64,000 nucleotides of DNA from Burkholderiales bacterium. Its GTDB lineage: Bacteria > Pseudomonadota > Gammaproteobacteria > Burkholderiales > Burkholderiaceae_C. The stretch spans positions 124,001-188,000 of the forward strand of contig RXJQ01000025.1 of NCBI GenBank assembly GCA_003963115.1, read 5' to 3'. The position numbers and the translations under genes are program-made. Below are positions 1 to 12,300 of the stretch, piece by piece (the first letter of the stretch is position 1; every line of letters starts with the position of its first letter). The notes below the pieces were generated by a model. It searched no databases and was not told the DNA's origin. It saw only the letters and a program-made list of their open reading frames with translations.

Positions 1-1134
1 TAAATGCTTGAGCGGAACTCCGTAGGCGATGGCCTCTTCATACATCTTGCGCAGGGGAATTTTGCTAAGCAAAAGATCGCGTGTTTCGCTTTTACCTCCT
101 TCATCAGGCCGATATCCCCCGCCTACGTTTGAGTGCGCGCCAGGTTAGACGATCTCCTGGGCGCCATCGGGCAGCTTGGCACCGTCCCATACTGTGTCCA
201 AAGGGAATGAGTTTCTGAACTCGTTCATCGCCATGAGGTGCAGGGTACGCGTCACGAGAGGCGGGATACGCAGGTTGCTGGCCCAGGAAGCATGGCCATC
301 GAACACGCCCGGGGTCGGGTCTGCGCCGGGCTTGTCGCCAAAGGCCAGCGTGTTGAGCCAGCTTCTGCGTTGCGCCATGGCCGTGTCCAGCGCCACCCAT
401 TTCTTGGCTGTGGCGAGTGAGCCCAAGCTGGTGCTCGCTGGCAAGCCCACTGATGCCACGGTATCAAACAAGCCCAGAAAGTAGATCTCGCAGGGGCGAT
501 GGATGCTCCTCAGCGTGCCTTGCCTGGAGCCGGCATCCCATGCGCATCGATCGTTGATGCGGCGTGCGAATGCCCGCGCGAGTGTGGCGCCGCGCGAAAA
601 ACCAAAGATGGCCAGATTGACCGATTCAATCTTGTCAGCAGGGTGCTTGGCGACGGTGGCATCGAACCATTTCATGGCCTGATCCAGGCGGGCATCGCCG
701 TATTTGCCAAAGGCCATGCCATCGTCATCACCGATGTCGCTAATTTCTTTGAAGTAGGTGCCCAGGCCTGGGATGTAATGCGCGTAGATGCCCTTCGCCA
801 CGTCTTCTCTGGGGTGAGCCTTGAACAATCGAGCGACGTTGCTGTGCTTGTCCGTGCCTTCGTCCGCGTCCAGATTGTTGCCGGTGCCATCAAAGAAGAA
901 TGAAATGCGCAGCGTCACTTTGCATGTGTGCGTAGCTGGTTGGCCGTCTAGGCGAGCACCCAGCGCTTGGGCGCGTTGCGCCAAGTCTGGCCCATCGATG
1001 GGGGCATGTGGTGGTGAGCACACAGGGGCAGACAGGGTTCGCGAAGCCGCCGCGCTGCTGCCGAGCGCTTCGTAGGGCTGGCGCGTGGCCGGGCCTGCTG
1101 TGGCTGTTTCAGTGGTCTTGCTGGAGTTGTTCAT
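1..1134 (-). pseudogene. DUF2235 / Tle1-like T6SS phospholipase effector, interrupted by an in-frame TAA; runs off the left edge
   Basis: N-terminal FFFDGTGNN and GFSRG (GxSxG) motifs; the ORF stops after ...PDGAQEIV but the same frame continues as PGAHSNVGGGYRPDEGGKSETRDLLLSKIPLRKMYEEAIAYGVPLKHL to base 1, collinear with the intact paralogue at 3138..4982 (FPGMHSDVGGGYSPQEQG...). Confidence 0.85.
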
Positions 1135-1732
1135 GGCTGCACGGGGGGAAATTGTTGGAAGCACCGGGGCGCTGTTCATCTGCTGTGATAGGCAACTTCA
1201 AGCGCGGAGGCGAGTAGCCGGGTGTCACGGCCGCTTCGACGTGGCCATCAGGAAAGAAGTGCACCTCCAGCGCAGCAGGCTCTTCGGTCTGCATGCGCTC
1301 GACCGGTACCTGCACTTCGCGGAAAAGGCTTTTGCGCCAAAAATGGGTTCCGCCGTACTTGTTGGTGGTGGAGTACATGCAGTAACTGGCTGACCACTTG
1401 ACGGTGACCCTGGCTGAACCCGCAGGATTGAAGCTGTAGCAACAAACCGACCCACCGCCGCCCGTCGTTGGACTGCTCACATAGATGTTGCCGCTGCCTG
1501 CACCATTCACGCTGAAGCTGTCGATGTAGTGGTCGGTGTAGTTGTAGCCCTGAATCAGTAGGCCCTTGGATTGTTCTTTGGTCTGCGTTTGCGGCGCTTT
1601 GTCTACGGCAGATGTTGGGGAGGCACAGGCTGAGATGCAGAGCCCCAAAGCTGCGCAGGCAAAGCAAGTCAGCCAGCGCGAAAGATCTCGATCCACGTGA
1701 TGCATATCAGTGGCCTTGCTGGAGTTGATCAT
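1109..1732 (-). CDS. DUF3304-type lipoprotein, putative lipase immunity protein (copy 2)
   Basis: Signal/lipobox-like CISAC; GLLIQGYNYTDHYIDSF...VCCYSFNP...HFFPDGHVEAAVTPGYSPPRLKLPITADEQRPGAS shared with the neighbouring ORF; the true start may be internal (MHHVDRD). Confidence 0.7.
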   Translation of the reverse strand: MINSSKATDMHHVDRDLSRWLTCFACAALGLCISACASPTSAVDKAPQTQTKEQSKGLLIQGYNYTDHYIDSFSVNGAGSGNIYVSSPTTGGGGSVCCYSFNPAGSARVTVKWSASYCMYSTTNKYGGTHFWRKSLFREVQVPVERMQTEEPAALEVHFFPDGHVEAAVTPGYSPPRLKLPITADEQRPGASNNFPPCSHEQLQQDH

Positions 1733-2312
1733 GGCTGCAGGGGGGGAAGTCGTAGGAGGCTCCGGGGCGTTGTTCGTCCGCCGTGATGGGCAGCCTCAGG
1801 CGTGGTGGCGAGTAGCCGGGCGTCACGGCGGCTTCGACGTGGCCATCAGGATAGAAGTGAACCTCCAGCGCCATGGCTGGCGTGGACACCTCACTCAAAG
1901 GCACAGAGGCCTCCTTCCATAGGGTTTTGCGTTCATCCACAAAGCGAGGCCCGAACGAGTAAGGGTTTGCTTTGTGTTCCATGCAGTAGGCCGCTGCCCA
2001 GCGAATTTTCAGCAGAATGGGGCGAGGCGCGCTGGGGTTGAAGCTATAACAGCAAGCTGACTTGCCGCCGCCTGTCGTTGGGCTGCTCACAAAGACGTTG
2101 CCGCCACCCGCGCCATCGACCGTGAAGCTGTCAATGAACATATTGGTGTAGTTGTAGCCCTGGATCAGCAGCCCTTGCGCTTGCGACCCTGAGGCATTCT
2201 GGGTAGTGGTCACCTGGCTATTGCCGCTGTCTGCCGAGTCGGGTGGCGAGGCCACACACCCCGTCGTGCTGAGGCATGCGCTGACGCAAACCGTCAAGAG
2301 TTGTCGATTCAT
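1707..2312 (-). CDS. DUF3304-type lipoprotein, putative lipase immunity protein (copy 1)
   Basis: MNRQLLTVCVSACLSTTGC lipobox; near-identical C-terminal half to the 1109..1732 product; start overlaps the upstream stop (ATGA). Confidence 0.75.
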   Translation of the reverse strand: MNRQLLTVCVSACLSTTGCVASPPDSADSGNSQVTTTQNASGSQAQGLLIQGYNYTNMFIDSFTVDGAGGGNVFVSSPTTGGGKSACCYSFNPSAPRPILLKIRWAAAYCMEHKANPYSFGPRFVDERKTLWKEASVPLSEVSTPAMALEVHFYPDGHVEAAVTPGYSPPRLRLPITADEQRPGASYDFPPCSHDQLQQGH

Positions 2313-3016
2313 TTTTTGATGGCCTGTTCGATGGCTTGCAGCAGTGTCAACTGGCGCTGCTTGACTTTGACCATCAAGGACGCCCATTGTTCGCTGTTCT
2401 CAAAGCCGACGCCCAACTCCAATGTCAGCACACAGAACATCACGCGGTCGGCCAGAGCCTCCAGCGCAAACTGGTCTGCCACCTGTAAGGCACGCTTGGT
2501 GAATGCGGCTCTGTCTGCAATGGGCACGGCCATGAATGCGTCAGGTGATTCGCGCATCAATTCGGGCATGACCGTGTCCACCTCGGCTGCAGCAAGCAGT
2601 TGATCGGCCTGCGGCTGTGTCAATACCAAGGGCGCTTCAAAGGTGGCTGACGTACGCACAGGACTCAGGTCAATAACGCGAAAAGTTCGTGCGCGATCCA
2701 CATAAGCCCATTGGCCATCCAATGCCCAATAGCCTGCGGCCTGATCGGCTCGCAATACAGCTTGTATCTCAGGCAGGACGCGTGGGTCATAACACCTGAG
2801 CAACACACGGTAGTCATCAGGCAACACAGCCTTGGTGCGCTCGTTCAAGGCATGCGCAAGGGCAGGCGTCGGCAAGGAGCTGTGAAGCCAGGTGGCACAA
2901 GCGCTGCTGTTTGCCCACGCCATGGTGTTGCTAAAGTCGCGCTGGCCACGTGTATTGCGGTCGAGCGGCATGAGCCACGCGCTGGCGTGTTCAGCATCGG
3001 GGCGTTCATCGCCCAA
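2309..3016 (-). pseudogene. 5'-truncated DUF4123-family T6SS adaptor (Tap/TEC-like)
   Basis: CYDPRVLPEIQAVL...GYWALDGQWAYVDR resembles DUF4123 proteins and the full-length paralogue at 5531..6325; the N-terminal ~90 aa are missing and the upstream sequence is a vgrG fragment; only a TTG start is available in the ORF track. Confidence 0.6.
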
Positions 3017-3044
3017 GATGTTGCATGCTTGGCGGGCCTTGATG

Positions 3045-3117
3045 GCCGAGTTGGTCTGTGTGGAGCTCGTCGGTGCCGCTGGGATTCACGCCGCCATCGG
3101 GGCTCACAACGATGATG
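3045..3117 (-). pseudogene. vgrG relic fragment
   Basis: Plus-strand bases 3045-3117 align without gaps to vgrG 7801-7873 with about nine mismatches; the minus-strand reading IIVVSPDGGVNPSGTDELHTDQLG matches VgrG AIVVGPDGGVNPSGAYELHTDQLG. Confidence 0.9.
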
Positions 3118-3137
3118 CTCTCCAACCCTAGGCAAGA

Positions 3138-4982
3138 TCAGACAGCCGCTACACGAGGCTGATCTAAATTGGGTTTCCCTTGTGCAACTGATGCAGCACC
3201 AGTCGATGAATCTGGTGGTTTGCTTGGGTCATTGCGAACTATTTGCACGTTATCCCCTTCGTAGCGACGACGCCATCGGAAATAGCCTTCGGGCTCCCAC
3301 GAGCCAGGCACAGGATCCCAGCCAAAGATCTTGATCTGATCAAACGGACGGAAACCCGCATAGGAATCGTGACAATAGTCTGCGAACAAGGTAGCGGCGG
3401 CTGCATCAACTGCCGACATGCTTTGCAACCGATTGAAAATGTCAAGAGCCTCTTCCTTCATGCTACGCACGCGGCTTTCGGCATTCTGCTGTATGACGGA
3501 CTTGTAGTCGTCGTTGTCCCAATTCGTGGTCGACACTGGATGCAGATGAAGGTTCAACGCATCGACGTCCTGAAGCAACAGCTGATTCGCACCGGAGAGG
3601 TCGTCCCTGTCAGATGGACTGGCACGATGGAACCAGGGAAGCGACATGTATTGGTTACGAACCTGATAGCGCCAGGCCAGATACTCGAACAACCAATCGC
3701 GCATTTGGCGCGGCTTCTGGCGAGGAGTCATGAAAGCGTTGAAAGCATCGACGGTAGCGTCCGCGATCTCGAAGCAATCATATGCGCCATCAGCCGCAAG
3801 GTTTTTATCCAATGGAACCAACGCCTTGCGAGAGGCAAGGTACATGGCGTTCAAGGCCATCTGGGAGAGCTTTTCGTCGTTCTTGCCGTGAGGCCCCCGC
3901 CCTTGCTCCTGAGGTGAATAGCCGCCACCAACGTCCGAGTGCATGCCCGGGAACATGAACTCATGGCAGTTGTCTGGGATATGGCCATCTTGCTGGATCA
4001 ACTCGACAGGGAATGAGCCTCTGTTCTCGTGCATGGCAACAAAGTGAACACAGTTTTTGACCTGAGGTGAAATACGCAACCGCTCCGGCTGCGCCCAGGA
4101 CCGATGTCCGTTTTGACCCATGCCAAAGGAAGCGGGCAAACCAACCGATGCCACAGTATCGAACAAGCCAAGAAAGCGGATCTTGGCAGGCACACCACAC
4201 AGGGTGTCACCTTCAAAGAGCTCCAGCAACCAGTTGGTGAAGGTGCGGGCCTCTGCGGCGCCACGTGAAAACCCATAGACATCAAAGAATATCTCGATGA
4301 TTTTTGGCTTGGCCACCTCAGCCATCCGTACTTGAATGTCTTTGCATGCACGTTTGAAAAAAGCCAGACGGTGCGACGACTTGGCAGCGAAGTCGTCAAG
4401 CAGCAGACCGCCGCAGGTGTCCATGTTCACCCGTCGCAAGGCGGGCTCATCTTCATAGGATGCCAAAGGACTGCGTTGCGGGACACCTCCGCGTCCAACT
4501 GTTGTGCTGCGCTTGCCGTTGCGGCACAAAGCCTTGACTGTGTCGTCGGGTGCATACAGTCGTTTGTTGGGCGAGATGCTCAAATAGATCGAGTTGATGA
4601 CTTGAAGCAATCCAAAATTGATCCGGCCGTCTCCACCAGCGCCAAAGGCAGCCCCCAGCGACGCTGGCTTCTCTTCTCCAATTTTTGGAAACGGGGTTCC
4701 TACCCCCGGGACGTAAATTGGAAAATAGCCATTCCAGTCTTCATCTCGATAGGCACGAAAGAGGCGCGCAACGTTGCTGTCTTTCTGGCGTTGCAACTGG
4801 GTTTGTGCCTTTCCAGGCTCCACCCAGTTTTGGTTGTTTCCTGTGCCATCAAAGAACACCCCAATGCTCAAGGCCATCTCGCATTGGTGTGCCTGTGGCG
4901 CTCTCTGCGGATAAACAGGCTTAATGCCTGGAGTTGGCCCAAGAGGGTGGGCCGCCACCATGGTCTCATTGCTGTTGTTCAT
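3138..4982 (-). CDS. DUF2235 / Tle1-like T6SS phospholipase effector
   Basis: GVFFDGTGNN, VYGFSRGAAEARTF (GxSxG), FLGLFDTVASVGLP, FPGMHSDVGGGY; adjacent to adaptor and vgrG. Confidence 0.88.
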   Translation of the reverse strand: MNNSNETMVAAHPLGPTPGIKPVYPQRAPQAHQCEMALSIGVFFDGTGNNQNWVEPGKAQTQLQRQKDSNVARLFRAYRDEDWNGYFPIYVPGVGTPFPKIGEEKPASLGAAFGAGGDGRINFGLLQVINSIYLSISPNKRLYAPDDTVKALCRNGKRSTTVGRGGVPQRSPLASYEDEPALRRVNMDTCGGLLLDDFAAKSSHRLAFFKRACKDIQVRMAEVAKPKIIEIFFDVYGFSRGAAEARTFTNWLLELFEGDTLCGVPAKIRFLGLFDTVASVGLPASFGMGQNGHRSWAQPERLRISPQVKNCVHFVAMHENRGSFPVELIQQDGHIPDNCHEFMFPGMHSDVGGGYSPQEQGRGPHGKNDEKLSQMALNAMYLASRKALVPLDKNLAADGAYDCFEIADATVDAFNAFMTPRQKPRQMRDWLFEYLAWRYQVRNQYMSLPWFHRASPSDRDDLSGANQLLLQDVDALNLHLHPVSTTNWDNDDYKSVIQQNAESRVRSMKEEALDIFNRLQSMSAVDAAAATLFADYCHDSYAGFRPFDQIKIFGWDPVPGSWEPEGYFRWRRRYEGDNVQIVRNDPSKPPDSSTGAASVAQGKPNLDQPRVAAV

Positions 4983-5472
4983 CTGGATCTCGGAATGGGT
5001 TGTTTGGGGTCACCTTTCTGGGCCATGGATATGTCTGCCACGGATGTTTGTGGGGAATTGGATCGTGTGTACCAGGGTAGGTCGGACTACTTGGCGACTC
5101 GTTGGCAAGGGTGATGCGAACCTGTCCGTTGGCCAGGAAATGAACAAACATGCGACCGACTTCGTCATAGCGGTCAACGGGCACATCTGCTTCGTATTCC
5201 TGACTCGTACGCTCTTTCCAGTTCGTCACGTGCCACACAACGTGCACCTTCAAGCCTGGCGTCCATGTCTTGGGAACGACAACACAGCAAACGAGTCGCC
5301 CCCCTGTCCCTGCCTGAGCCCCGTTGTAGCCATTCACCCAGAAATTCTGCACGCTGAGGTCTTCCCGCAGATGGTCAATGCCGGTGAGGCCAACACCGTC
5401 GCTCTCATCCTTGGCGCCAATCACATTGCAGGCAGTCAGCCCGATCATCAACACGATGAGCATCAGGCGCAT
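4966..5472 (-). CDS. DUF3304-like lipoprotein, putative immunity protein
   Basis: MRLMLIVLMIGLTAC lipobox; LVCCVVVP and MFVHFLANGQVRITLA resemble VCCYSFNP and LEVHFYPDGHVEAAV of the other two copies; sits directly upstream of the lipase gene. Confidence 0.65.
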   Translation of the reverse strand: MRLMLIVLMIGLTACNVIGAKDESDGVGLTGIDHLREDLSVQNFWVNGYNGAQAGTGGRLVCCVVVPKTWTPGLKVHVVWHVTNWKERTSQEYEADVPVDRYDEVGRMFVHFLANGQVRITLANESPSSPTYPGTHDPIPHKHPWQTYPWPRKVTPNNPFRDPDEQQQ

Positions 5473-5530
5473 TGAATATTTTTTGAATGTAGGCACGAGG
5501 TTCACCTATCGACCGTTGCTTGAGCTTGAA

Positions 5531-6325
5531 TCAGGTACAGGCTTCGACGCCCGCTTGGTGGCTGGCGAAAAGGGCTTTGGACCATTGAGCGTCGTCCCAG
5601 TCTGGCCGCGTGTTGGTCAGCATCAGGGCCAGCATTGCCAACTGAACAGGATATCTTTCCTCTCGATGCTTGACGGCCCAGTCACATACCCTTTGAGCAC
5701 ATGCATGTCGTTGGTAAGGCGTCAATCCATGGCCAAGGCCAGGCTGTTGGTCGACGACCGAACTGAGCAGCAAATCTGGCAACGTGCGGTCAAGCAAATG
5801 GCCCAATTGCTGGTCGCTTAGCTTGAGTGGTCCCGTTGCGCCAAAGGAGGTGGCCACAGCCCTTTTTTCACCGACCTCGATGCTCTGCGCATGACCTTGT
5901 CGGTCAATGTAGAACCAGCGGTCAATGGGCCCGCAAAGCGCACGTTGTTGCGATTCGCTCAATACAGACCAAAGCGCCACAAGGCATCGACTGTCGGCAT
6001 AGCGAAGGAAATAGCGCTGGCCGTCCTGAGTATGCAGATAACACAATGTAGCGAGATGATGCTCCAGTGCATCGATGCCAACGTCGGTGTGCAACGTTGA
6101 GATGGCCCAGGCGCGGGCAACATCCGCTTGCAATGCCGCCACGATCGAGTCGGCCAAGGTACTCCGCCCAAGGAGGACTGGCCCAACCGATGCGGCCTGA
6201 TCGTCAGGGATGCGGTCATACAGCCAGCGAATCAGGGTCACTTGATGAAGCCCGTCGATTTCCGTTGGCGTCAGGCCACTGGCGTCCAGCAGCCAGTAGA
6301 CGTTTGAGGCCTTTACGTTGTTCAT
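5531..6325 (-). CDS. DUF4123 domain protein (T6SS effector adaptor)
   Basis: VYWLLDASGLTPTEIDGLHQ..., RYADSRCLVALWSVLSESQQRALCGPIDRWFYIDRQG; start overlaps the vgrG stop. Confidence 0.75.
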   Translation of the reverse strand: MNNVKASNVYWLLDASGLTPTEIDGLHQVTLIRWLYDRIPDDQAASVGPVLLGRSTLADSIVAALQADVARAWAISTLHTDVGIDALEHHLATLCYLHTQDGQRYFLRYADSRCLVALWSVLSESQQRALCGPIDRWFYIDRQGHAQSIEVGEKRAVATSFGATGPLKLSDQQLGHLLDRTLPDLLLSSVVDQQPGLGHGLTPYQRHACAQRVCDWAVKHREERYPVQLAMLALMLTNTRPDWDDAQWSKALFASHQAGVEACT

Positions 6326-9264
6326 GCAGGCACCAAGGGTGAGGCAGCTTTCGCCGCCCTCAAGAAGCAACTCAAGCAGAAGTCTGACTTGGGTAAATCT
6401 GGTGCCGGGGTTTCAGCGGTCGCTGGCCCCACCATCGACTTCTGCCCCGCCTGCACCGTGATCTTGCCCGGGCACTGCACAGTGAAGTTGCCGCCTTCAA
6501 TGGTGATGCTGGCCCCGCCTGACACGGCCAGCGTGACCTTCTTGGCCGCGGCGACGTTGACCACGCCGTTGGCGGTCTTGAGCTCCAGCGTCTGCTTGGC
6601 TGCAATCTGAGCCGCACCCGCTTGCGCCTGCATGTCCACCGGTCCTTGCGCGGCGATCATGGTCAGGCCTTTGCCTGCGGCATCCGTGCCCGGCTGGATC
6701 GCGCCGGCGAGGATGCCGATGGCCTGACCGGTCTGCATGCGGGCCTGCCCACCCACGGCGAAGTGGGTGTCTTGCCCGCTGGCGATCTGCGTGGTGTCTT
6801 GCGCACTGAGGTGTAGGTCTTGCCCTGCTGTGAGGCCGATGCCGGCTTTGCCCATCAGGGCGATGTTCGGGTCGGCCATGTGGGGCACTGTGCCCTGGCC
6901 GTTGGTGTTGACCATGCCCGAGAGGCTCTTGGTGAGCGCCGCGGCGGGTGCTGCCTCAGCATCGAGCACGCTTTGGTTGGGGCCCACGCTGCCGGCTGCG
7001 GTGGCCAGGCCAACGGTCTGGTGTGTGGTGGCTGCCTGGTGGAAGGTCTGCGCGAGTTGCTGGGCCTGTTTGGCCAGGGCCATGCCTGGTGCGTTGTCGC
7101 CGGCCGGCGTGACGGTCTGGGCCAGCCCGTTGTCCAGCCCGAAGGTGCTGAGCATCACGCCACGGGCCGCGCGCAGGCCGCCCCATGCGTCGGTGCGCAG
7201 TTCGAAGCCCTGACCTCTGAAGCTGCCTCGGTGGTTGTCGGCCTGGTGCAGCAGGTGGCCCATCTGCAGCCAGGTCTGGCCTTGTGTGGTGTGCAGCTGG
7301 GTGCGCAGTTGCTGGGGCGTGTCGTCGAACACCATCTGGTTGTGGCCGCTGCCGCCGAACTCTTTGCTCTTGATGCCACTGAGGGCGGCGGCATTGTTCT
7401 GGCCTTCGCTGCCATCGGTGGTGGCTGCCGGTGCGGCGCCGTGCCAGGCGGGACTGTTGCCACCGCTGCCCGAGCCCACCAGGTTCATCTGGCTGCTGGG
7501 GCTGTGGTCCGTGGATGCGGACAAGGCGCTGGTGTTGGCCCTGGCGCTGCTGTCGCCACCGGGTGTGCGAGGGATACCCGATTCGCCCCGGCCGTTGTAG
7601 AGGCTCTTGAACACGACGGGCCGGTCGATGTCGTTGTTCAGGAAGACGACCAGCACCTCTTGCCCGATGCGGGGGATGAACTGGTGGCCCATGCCGGGGC
7701 CGGCGAACTGCTGCACCACGCGCAGCCAGCAGCTGTGGTCGCTGTTGGCACGCTGTGGCGCATACGGATTGGCCTGCCAGTGGAACCTGATCTTCACGCG
7801 GCCGAGTTGGTCGGTGTGGAGCTCGTAGGCGCCGCTGGGGTTCACGCCGCCATCGGGGCCCACGACGATGGCGGTCTGCGGGCCCAGTGCGGTGGGCCGG
7901 GGGCGCGGGCGCAGGCCGGTGTCGTCCAGCAGGACGGCGCGCCAGGGCACGTCGCGGCGCAGGGCCTGGAACTGGACGGCGAAGCCCAGTGTCTGGGCCT
8001 GCTGGTAGAGCGCCTGCGAGTCCACATCCCAGTTGGCCTGTTGATCGGGCTGGGCGCTCAGCGAGGGCAGCTCGGCATCGCCCAGGGTCTTGGCGATGCG
8101 CTCGTGCAGGTCGCGCGGCAGGTTGTTGATGCCCACGGCGTGGCAGCGGGTGACGAAGAACGGCTTGCCTTGGTCGCTCAGGCCGAATGCCGCCAGCGGG
8201 TCCAGGGTGGATTGGCTCAAGGCAAACCAGGTGCCGGCGCGCAGTGTGCGGACCGTGCCTCGGCCCAGCCAGGTCTTGTAGCGGGCTTCGTGCGCTTCTT
8301 GCAGGCGGGTGGCGGCGAACTGGGCTTCGGTCTGGCTGCCGAAGATGAAGTCGCCCGTGGGGTCGTAGCTGCTGAGCCAGCTTTGCAGGCTGCTGGCTTC
8401 TTCGCCGGCCCATTGATGGCTGGTCGGGACTTCGGCGGTGACGGCGCCATGGGCCTTGTAGTCCCAGCCTTGCACGACCATGGCGGTGGGGCCGAGCTGG
8501 CGCACTGCGCCGAAGGATTGGATGGTGTCTTGTTCTTCCTGGCTGTGGCCCCGGTGGAAGCGGATGCCAGCGCCACCCAGGCTGCTGGCGCTGGTGGCAT
8601 CTTGCGGCTGAGCGCTGCTGTTGGCGAAGAACACGATCGTGTGCCCGCCCGCTGCGGCTTCGTCTTCCTCCACGCGCCAGCACAGGCCTTCTTCGGCCAG
8701 GAGGCGCTGCACGAAAGCGAGATCGGTTTCGCGGTACTGCACGCAGTAGGCGCGCTGGCCGCCATTGCGGGCGAACAGGCCTTCAGCCACGTAACGCGGG
8801 ACGTCTTCGTCCCAGCGCCAGGCGGCGATGGTGTCGTGGTCGGCGAACACGTCTTCCACGATCTCGATGATGGACTTGTCCTGCCAGACCCGGCTGTTCA
8901 GCGTGTGGCCCAGCAGCGCGATCCAGGGCTGCACCAGCAGGGCCTTGCGGGCAAAGCCGCCATCGGCATCAAGCGCGCGGGCCTCGGTCACATAGCCGCT
9001 GCGCCTGGCGCGGCTGCCGTCCGACAGCACAGCCTCCAGCGTGATGGGGCGGGCGTAGAGCTGCTTGAGCTCGACCTGCGCATTGAGCACCAGGGCGTTG
9101 ATGTAGAGCGAAAACGGCTCGGACACCGCTTCGCTGAGCACGAAGCTCTCGACCATGAGGTCGGCGGGCAGCGCACGCGCCTGGCTGGGGCAGCTGAGTG
9201 TGTAGAGGCGCGTGCCGCTGTCCCATGCTGACGCGAGCCCGCTGGGCAAAGATGGCAATGCCAT
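6322..9264 (-). CDS. vgrG: T6SS spike protein VgrG (TssI) with C-terminal DUF2345-type region
   Basis: LYALSCPSQARALPADLMVESF..., YCVQYRETDLAFVQRLLAEEGLCW, LGRVKIRFHWQ, CWLRVVQQFAGPGMGHQFIPRIGQEVLVVFLNNDIDRPVV. Confidence 0.96.
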   Translation of the reverse strand: MALPSLPSGLASAWDSGTRLYTLSCPSQARALPADLMVESFVLSEAVSEPFSLYINALVLNAQVELKQLYARPITLEAVLSDGSRARRSGYVTEARALDADGGFARKALLVQPWIALLGHTLNSRVWQDKSIIEIVEDVFADHDTIAAWRWDEDVPRYVAEGLFARNGGQRAYCVQYRETDLAFVQRLLAEEGLCWRVEEDEAAAGGHTIVFFANSSAQPQDATSASSLGGAGIRFHRGHSQEEQDTIQSFGAVRQLGPTAMVVQGWDYKAHGAVTAEVPTSHQWAGEEASSLQSWLSSYDPTGDFIFGSQTEAQFAATRLQEAHEARYKTWLGRGTVRTLRAGTWFALSQSTLDPLAAFGLSDQGKPFFVTRCHAVGINNLPRDLHERIAKTLGDAELPSLSAQPDQQANWDVDSQALYQQAQTLGFAVQFQALRRDVPWRAVLLDDTGLRPRPRPTALGPQTAIVVGPDGGVNPSGAYELHTDQLGRVKIRFHWQANPYAPQRANSDHSCWLRVVQQFAGPGMGHQFIPRIGQEVLVVFLNNDIDRPVVFKSLYNGRGESGIPRTPGGDSSARANTSALSASTDHSPSSQMNLVGSGSGGNSPAWHGAAPAATTDGSEGQNNAAALSGIKSKEFGGSGHNQMVFDDTPQQLRTQLHTTQGQTWLQMGHLLHQADNHRGSFRGQGFELRTDAWGGLRAARGVMLSTFGLDNGLAQTVTPAGDNAPGMALAKQAQQLAQTFHQAATTHQTVGLATAAGSVGPNQSVLDAEAAPAAALTKSLSGMVNTNGQGTVPHMADPNIALMGKAGIGLTAGQDLHLSAQDTTQIASGQDTHFAVGGQARMQTGQAIGILAGAIQPGTDAAGKGLTMIAAQGPVDMQAQAGAAQIAAKQTLELKTANGVVNVAAAKKVTLAVSGGASITIEGGNFTVQCPGKITVQAGQKSMVGPATAETPAPDLPKSDFCLSCFLRAAKAASPLVPA

Positions 9265-9382
9265 GTTCTTCCCTGAAATTGAATGAGGTTCAGGGCGGCA
9301 TTGTCGGCGTGGATGCGCGGATCAGGCGCCCTCTCTGGAGGGGGCTGTGCAACGAGCTGTAACCAGTGGCCTTGGTGGGGCC

Positions 9383-12300
9383 TCAGTTGTGGCAGACCGT
9401 CGGCGTCATCAGCTCAGCCAGGGGTTGGGGCTTGTGGATCAGGTAGCCCTGCGCGTGGTCCACACCGAGATGGCGCAAGGCCTGCAAGGCCGCATCGGTC
9501 TCCACGAACTCGGCGATCGTCTGGATGCCCAGCACGCGGGCGACTTCGCAGAAGCAGCGCACGGCGGCCTGGTCCAGCGGGTCGTGCACCACGTCCTTGA
9601 CGAACTGGCCGTCGATCTTGAGGTAGTCCACGGGCAGGGTCTTGAGGTAGCCGAAGGACGATGCACCGGAGCCGAAGTCGTCCAGCGCCATGCGCACGCC
9701 GCGTGCCCGCATGTCTTCGATGAAGGTGCCCGCCTCGGCCAGGTTGGTGATGGCGGCTGTCTCGGTGATCTCCAGACAGAGCTTGCGCACGTCCACCACA
9801 TGCTCGGCAAACAGCGCTTGCATGAAGCGGTGGAAGGTCGGGTCGCCGATGGACTGGCCCGACAGGTTGATGGCGATGGTGTCGATCTGATCGAGCGCTT
9901 CGCCTTGGCTGGCCAGCCAGTCGAACACATGCCTCACGACCCAGCGGTCGATGCGCGAAGCCAGGTTGAAGCGTTCGGCTGCGGGCAGGAAGGCGCCTGG
10001 TGGGATGATGAGGCCGTCTGCGTCACGCAGGCGCAGCAGCACCTCGCAGTGCAGGCCTTGGGCCTCGTGGTGGATGGGGGCGATGCGTTGGCCCCAGAGC
10101 ACAAAGCGGTCTTCGTCGAGGGCCTGCTCCAGCCGGCTGGCCCATTGCATCTCGCCTTTGCGGGCACGCATGGCCTGGTCGGTGTCGAACCAGGCGTGCA
10201 CGCGGTTGCGACCGGCTTCCTTGGCCGCGTAGCAGGAGGTGTCGGCGGCTTGCAGCAAGGTGGCGGTGCTGAGCCAGCGCTTGTCCAGCGGGACCAGGCC
10301 GATGCTGGTGCCAATGCGAAAGCGCCGGCCATCGTGGATGAAGCGAAACGCCTCCATCTGGTCGCAGATGTCCTGGGCCACGCGGTGGGCCTGGTCGACC
10401 GTGCAGTGCTCCAGGATGACGCCGAACTCGTCGCCCCCCAGGCGCGCCAGCGTGTCACGTGCGCGCACGCAGCCTTGCAGCAGGCTGGTGACCTGGCACA
10501 GCAACTGGTCGCCTACGCTGTGGCCGCAGGCATCGTTGACGAGCTTGAACTGGTCGAGGTCGATGTACATCAGCGCATGGCTGCTGTCGCGCTCGTGCGC
10601 CTCGCTGAGCACGCGCGAGAGGCGCTTGTCGAACTCGGCGCGGTTGACCAGGCCGGTGAGCTGATCATGCGTGGCTCGAAAGCGCATCTCGTGACCCATG
10701 CGGCGCTGCTCGGTCACGTCGTGGAAGACCAGTACCACGCCCAGCATCTGGCCGTCTTCATCGAGGATGGGGGCGGCGGAGTCTTCGATGCCGTATTCCT
10801 GCCCATCGCGCGAGATCAGCAAGGTGTGGTCGATGTGGTCGGCAAGGTCGACTGCATTGGTAGTGACCAGGCAGCGCTCGAAGGGGTTGGCTTCGGGCTC
10901 GCGCGTGAGTTCGCTGACGATGCGAAAGACCTCGGCCAGTGGCTGGTCGCGCGCGGCCTCGTTGTGCCAGCCCGTCATGCGTTCGGCCACGGGGTTGAGC
11001 CACTGCACGCGGCCATGGGCATCGGTGGTGATGACGGCGTCACCGATGGACTGCAGGGTCACGCGCAGCAGCTCGTGCTTTTCGGCGAGCTCGCGCTCCA
11101 TCTGCTTGCGTTCGGTCACATCGTAGTTGGCGCCCAGCACGCGGGTGGCGCGGCCCTTGGCATCGCGGAACACCGTGGCACGGCCATACACATAGCGTAC
11201 GGCGCCATTGGGGTGCAGCACGCGGAAGTCGAAGTCCAGCGGCTTGTGGCCCTTGATCGCGGCACCCAGCTCACGGCTGGTGTACTCGATGTCATCGGGG
11301 TGGATGCATTTGCGCCAATCGTCCAGGCTGCCCGTGAACTGCTCGCGCGGCAGGCCGAAGATGGTGTACATCATGTCGCTCCAGGTGAGCTTGCACTCTG
11401 GCAGCGTCAGCTCCCAGATGCCGATCTCGTTGGCCTGTGTGGCCAGCGTGAGGCGCTCCTGGTTGGCGTTCAGGGCCGCCTCGACGGCGTGCTTCTCGGT
11501 CACGTCTTCGAGGATGGCGAGGGAGCGCACGGGCTCGCCATTCTCATCGCGCTCCATGATGGCCGACAGCCGCACATCGATCAGTGTGCCGTTCTTGCGC
11601 ACCATCTGGTATTCGACGTTGTCGCAGCGACCGGTGAGCAGGTAGCGCGGCAGCACGATGTTGCGGGCGTATTCGTAAGACGAGGGCGCTAGGAAATCGG
11701 CCGATGAGCGCCCGATGACCTCTTCGCGGCTGTAGCCCATCTTGGCCAGCCAGGTGTCGCTCACGGTCAGCAGCACGCCATGCGCATCGATGGAATGCAG
11801 CATGGCCGGCGTGGACTCGTAGAGCGAGCGCAGGCGGGCCTTGCTGACCTGAAGCGACTCTTCCACGCGTTTGCGCTCGGTGATGTCACGCCCCACGGAG
11901 TGGATGCCGGTGACGCGGCCTTGCTGATCGTGGAAGACGCGGTTGGTCCAGGCCATCCAGCGCACGAGGCCATCGGCGGCGACGGTGCGGTTCTCATCCT
12001 GCAAGGGCTCTTGCGAGGACAGCACCCTGTGCAGATGTGCGCGGACCTGCGCATGCTCCGCCTCGGGCACGTAGTCGAACAGGCTGGTGCCCACGATGGC
12101 CTCGGCAGGCTTGTCGTACTTGCGGCAATAGGCCGCGTTCACGAAGGTGAGGAGGCCTTCGGGCGTGGCCAGGGAGATCAGCTCGGACTGGTCTTCGACG
12201 ATGGCGCGGTAGAGCGCCTCGTTCTGGGCGATCTCGCCGGCCAGGCCACGGCCCAGTTCGGTTGCGCGCTGCAAGGTCTTCTCGCGCAGGATCAGGCCTT

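Follow-up and report, generated by a model that had tools for sequence, protein, structure and literature searches.

Genes of the array and their setting

The array occupies the left end of the window, by which we mean the whole 64,000-nucleotide stretch of DNA that was analysed, in a draft 5.4-Mb genome of 108 contigs (G000, the window being C59:124001-188000) whose VgrG has its named close matches mostly in Aquabacterium MAGs. Read along the minus strand it comprises vgrG, DUF4123, DUF3304, a Tle1-like lipase, a vgrG relic, an N-truncated DUF4123, two successive DUF3304 genes and a second Tle1-like lipase (Table 1). Every part of the gene order given in an earlier note on this DNA was found, with curated Pfam matches (PF09994, Tle1-like, was formerly DUF2235). 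We refer to the unit next to vgrG as module 1, to the distal unit as module 2 and to the DUF3304 genes of the latter as 2a and 2b. To the right of the array lie T6SS genes for a Ser/Thr kinase, TssM (IcmF), TssL (DotU) and TssK, and to the left, beyond the window edge, are genes for an FHA protein, a TsiV-family protein and another VgrG, together with a probable phosphatase recognised by eye. A PAAR-like gene, a possible effector gene and a TsiV-family (PF11876) gene at L003:10474-13490, also left of the array, perhaps represent a second effector locus belonging to the same T6SS cluster. PADLOC returned no matches. The GC content is 68% in vgrG, 54-58% in module 1 and 57-60% in module 2, which does not date the modules because module 2 of kin genomes has the same low GC.

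Table 1. Features of the array, with positions in the window
Feature	Position	Strand	Evidence
vgrG, intact, 980 aa; GPD, base V, T6SS_Vgr, DUF2345	6322..9264	-	Pfam
Module 1 adaptor, DUF4123 (Tla1-like)	5531..6370	-	Pfam E 9.5e-16; G014 homologue in same place, 55%
Module 1 immunity, DUF3304 (Tli1-like), apparent lipobox LTAC	4966..5505	-	Pfam E 5.6e-18; lipobox read from sequence
Module 1 effector, Tle1-like lipase, 614 aa	3138..4982	-	PF09994 E 6.7e-31; PDB relatives 9j3f, 4o5p
Module 1 lipase motifs: GFSRG, HSDVGGGY, HDS-AGF near C-terminus	within 3138..4982	-	
vgrG relic, VgrG residues 458-489; 71-bp core 3044-3114	3042..3137	-	tblastn and nucleotide searches
Module 2 adaptor, DUF4123, ~42 N-terminal residues missing	2309..3016	-	Pfam; G037 comparison
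Module 2 immunity 2a, DUF3304, central block type A	1707..2312	-	Pfam; block typing
2a open frame, start taken at 2312 (MNRQLL...), apparent lipobox TTGC	2387-1707	-	
Module 2 immunity 2b, DUF3304, central block type B	1109..1732	-	Pfam; block typing
Module 2 effector, Tle1-like lipase, one in-frame TAA at 147-145	1..1179	-	PF09994 match 1179-145
Island share inside window	1..9400	.	whole island ~10.7-kb, to L003:18648

The module 1 lipase scores 108 bits against PF09994 and the N-terminal part of the module 2 lipase 69 bits (cut-off 27), the latter having been searched as two separate pieces, N and C of its stop codon, and both lipases carry the GFSRG serine motif and a C-terminal HDS motif. 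The earlier note was right that the second lipase contains a stop, a single in-frame TAA, but the gene does not end at 145: the frame runs on after the TAA, past the window edge, to L003:19185, and the C-terminal 271 aa beyond it are stop-free, leaving one point lesion in ~662 codons. A further ~0.8 kb outside the window should therefore be counted as part of the finding.

The module 2 lipase clade reads HSNVGGGY where module 1, G012 and other Tle1-like proteins read HSDVGGGY, and the Asn is common to eight genomes (window 1-1179; L025, L027-L031, L033). The D of HSDVGGGY is presumably the triad Asp of Tle1-type lipases; if this position is indeed the catalytic Asp, the module 2 clade may use an altered triad. 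We rejected the Asp-to-Asn change as a sign of decay, as the Asn also occurs in intact homologues of the clade.

All three DUF3304 genes score above the Pfam cut-off, each is adjacent to a PF09994 gene, and apparent lipobox cysteines can be read in all of them (LTAC, TTGC, ISAC, of which TTGC is atypical). A structure of DUF3304 2a predicted from the three window proteins (pLDDT 44.5) was too low in confidence for use; a PDB sequence search with DUF3304 gave chance antibody hits only.

Kin of the modules, the vgrG relic and the empty site

Comparison with related genomes, as the earlier note had proposed, showed each module standing singly elsewhere. Module 1 lies behind vgrG in G014 (76%) and G019 (65%). 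Module 2 lies behind vgrG, alone and intact, in G037, with one DUF3304 gene and an uninterrupted lipase of 81-83% identity, and module-2-type lipases accompanied by one to three DUF3304 genes are found in G034, G004, G041, G020, G012 and G008. Simpler precursor arrangements thus exist both for module 2 (G037 and others) and for module 1 (G014), at chromosomal sites different from that of G000. A first scan of the genome contigs with the module 1 lipase as query gave no match. A module-1-like lipase with two TGA stops lies behind vgrG and two DUF3304 genes in G012 (L056, 3848-5686).

Between the modules, the relic encodes its stretch of VgrG in frame (tblastn E 2.7e-7), and its 71-bp core shares 91.5% identity with this genome's own vgrG (E 3e-21 when the whole genome was searched, E 9e-24 in a second comparison), which bears out the vgrG homology that had been suspected at 3045-3117. 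Matches to the vgrG genes of relatives are weaker, reaching up to 79% in one comparison, among genes that could be aligned over most of the core, and mostly 78-82% across the same stretch in another. The relic joins the truncated DUF4123 gene out of frame; the match of the latter covers only Pfam positions 33-117 of 119, the residues missing being counted relative to the G037 homologue. The C-terminal 70 residues of the intact VgrG are 81-90% identical to those of the module 1 carriers G014 and G019 versus 59-65% for module 2 carriers, as expected if the tail matches the cargo. This difference does not place a crossover, and windowed identity along vgrG, used to look for a mosaic gene, gave no clear breakpoint.

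In five relatives of the Aquabacterium group (G003, G038, G005, G027 and G002) the neighbouring genes stand in the G000 order and the island is missing. Homology to G000 breaks off where a GGDEF/EAL gene ends (window ~9400) and is picked up again at, or close to, the end of a reductase gene (L003:18648). The relatives have some 50-110 bp in this interval, so that G000 holds ~10.7 kb extra, including vgrG and both modules. In G003, G038 and G002 a common vgrG occupies another site, where G000 has the flank without vgrG, and the vgrG island is thus placed differently in close relatives. No direct repeats at the island edges were found among the 20 largest repeat families. At the distal end of the island (L003:18647-19009) there is a 120-aa ORF that has no Pfam match and for which 100 related genomes yielded no relative.

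A parallel arrangement is seen in G007, which shares a chromosomal site with G037 (92% over 1.5 kb downstream). At this site G037 holds module 2 intact. In G007 the place next to vgrG is taken by a third module, which is followed by an open module-2-type DUF3304 gene and by a frameshifted wreck of the module 2 lipase, only ~113 residues long. G007 represents an independent, more advanced displacement.

The immunity pair and selection

The repeat period of 2a and 2b is ~600 bp and reaches into the lipase start codons: 2b opens MINSSKATD and the lipase MNNSSKTTE, similarity which indicates that the first codons of 2b were copied from the lipase start. The pair would have arisen by tandem duplication or insertion, one breakpoint falling within the first codons of the lipase. 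Later DUF3304 copies in G041 and G008 also have lipase-like starts (by eye). Vibrio cholerae Aux5 (TleV1/TliV1a/TliV1b; PMC6691524) has a DUF2235 lipase gene preceded by two DUF3304 genes that are separated by a lipase remnant, and TliV1b shows there that not every immunity copy protects (PMC6691524). The Aux5 layout (PMC6691524) is matched by G019, whose L055 (3182-4447) reads DUF3304, a 66-aa lipase fragment with a stop, DUF3304 and an intact lipase, whereas the scar here amounts to ~nine codons; the L055 layout is likely an intermediate of immunity-array growth in module 1.

Between 2a and 2b the flanks share 82% identity and a ~50-codon central block only 44%. The single DUF3304 genes of G037 and G007 show the same pattern (flanks 94%, block 51%, p = 5e-25, a descriptive value since flanks and block were delimited after the alignment had been seen), G037 having the block of the 2a type and G007 that of the 2b type. 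The simplest account of the aligned sequences is that the block was exchanged by recombination between tandem or incoming copies, and 2a and 2b may hold different immunity specificities, covering two lipase variants. In the published model of the Pseudomonas aeruginosa Tle1-Tli1a complex a DUF3304 loop contacts the lipase (PMC13133936). Tandem DUF3304 copies within a genome mostly cluster together (five loci), a pattern suggestive of duplication or homogenisation and contrary to that reported for the tandem immunity genes of V. cholerae (PMC5361080). Tentatively, DUF3304 in this genus might act as a recombining specificity library, in which tandem copies store alternative ~50-codon blocks, entire blocks pass between otherwise near-identical genes of different species, and protection outlasts a module's own lipase; if so, a cell would keep or change its protection against variant Tle1 lipases. 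The swapped block in any case offers a concrete, testable region for immunity specificity.

The earlier note had seen in module 2 an old effector losing its function while selection held both DUF3304 genes open. The stop codon and the open frames are there, but the rates of change do not show such selection here. Compared with G037, dN/dS is 0.28 for vgrG, 0.14 for the truncated adaptor, 0.15-0.17 for 2a and lowest of the module in the lipase, at 0.097 before the stop and 0.053 after it, although these ratios are rough as dS is near saturation for several genes. Relative-rate tests with intact outgroups gave no sign that the lipase has changed faster on the G000 branch; the G007 wreck was unusable as third sequence, being the sister of G037 there. 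With dN/dS of 0.05-0.10 and no acceleration, the lipase was constrained until recently, and the stop is either recent or a sequence error.

Whether selection keeps both immunity genes after lipase loss is, on balance, a nearly even question. The open frames of 2a and 2b and their dN/dS of ~0.15-0.2 speak for it, but the lipase is equally or more constrained, and at one lesion per 662 codons the two immunity genes (~400 codons in total) would show no lesion with a probability of ~0.55, so that, with too little time elapsed or a sequence error, clean frames are uninformative on selection here. G007 (L026) is a better case than G000 for immunity retention after effector loss: outside the block its orphan DUF3304 gene differs by 12 non-synonymous and 24 synonymous changes and the lipase wreck by ~18 and 12, fewer amino-acid changes in the immunity gene at p ~0.047, a marginal, uncorrected value from approximate counts derived from proportions.

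Probable displacement history

Our data suggest, with a probability of roughly 0.8, that two unrelated Tle1-type modules were stacked by sequential displacement in a vgrG island at the end of a T6SS cluster. The earlier note had likewise proposed stacking at the end of a T6SS operon with the distal unit the older, which the relic, the relatives with single modules and the G007 parallel corroborate. Module 2 would have been the earlier occupant behind vgrG, and module 1 DNA would then have recombined in through conserved vgrG sequence, landing directly behind vgrG and leaving, farther downstream, a vgrG scrap joined to what remained of the module 2 adaptor. Separated in this way from its vgrG and adaptor, the module 2 lipase would probably no longer be delivered and would later have acquired its stop. 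Genes 2a and 2b, if expressed, would still counter lipases of the module 2 type when relatives inject them. No relative was found to show, at the exact G000 site, the arrangement that immediately preceded displacement, and the five compared there are without any vgrG; module 2 may have arrived already displaced, and the relic could derive from the incoming DNA instead of the old vgrG. If displacement put an end to delivery, constraint on the lipase until very recently is hard to reconcile with a displacement long ago.

T6SS evolution of this kind is already known. In V. cholerae, T6SS effectors have been sequentially displaced and their immunity genes retained, for which homology-anchored illegitimate recombination was proposed (PMC5361080), and as there, a new module here would have been inserted behind a conserved vgrG, the old immunity genes being shifted downstream (PMC5361080). 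Unlike in V. cholerae, the old lipase is almost whole and the immunity genes lie ahead of it (PMC5361080); two stacked modules and a vgrG relic also differ from Aux5, a single effector module (PMC6691524). The P. aeruginosa vgrG4a-tla1-tli1-tle1 locus similarly brings together VgrG, a DUF4123 adaptor, a DUF3304 lipoprotein immunity protein and a Tle1 lipase (PMC13133936), and has two related immunity copies, one a proposed pseudogene (PMC13133936), but it is a single module with an intact lipase (PMC13133936). Sequential displacement would extend from Vibrio to an environmental betaproteobacterial genus, at an early stage in which the lipase is almost whole, the delivery genes are already cut and the immunity genes are untouched. 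G037 (before) and G007 (after) provide a natural series in which to ask whether immunity outlives the toxin by selection or by lag.

The island may instead have arrived as one pre-stacked block from another strain, the displacement having happened outside this lineage, an alternative we rate as somewhat short of an even chance. The site is empty in five relatives, three of which hold vgrG elsewhere, where G000 has the flank only, and whole-array transfer has also been described in V. cholerae (PMC5361080); displacement would still be needed somewhere, however, and the relic is closest to the island's own vgrG. It appears unlikely that the TAA was introduced in sequencing or assembly and that the module 2 lipase is in fact uninterrupted: the genome is a draft, with only one lesion in the lipase and strong constraint on either side of it, but the truncated adaptor and the vgrG relic, independent of the stop, leave the module damaged anyway. 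Recent tandem duplication of a single module, to which the identical gene order of the two units might point and which should not be read into the earlier note's two-generation tandem array, is refuted by the pairwise alignments that the note had called for, with identities of 31-42% for the Tle pieces, 28% for DUF4123 and 26% for DUF3304 (module 1 versus 2b), hence no recent common ancestry, and with each module nearer to modules in other genomes. The note's stacking and shared gene order stand, and each of the three module types found in the genus has the order vgrG, adaptor, immunity, lipase.

G038 has a different vgrG island (L073, 6193-11559) with a large ORF and, in tandem, three genes that resemble one another and begin like lipoprotein genes, possibly another immunity array.
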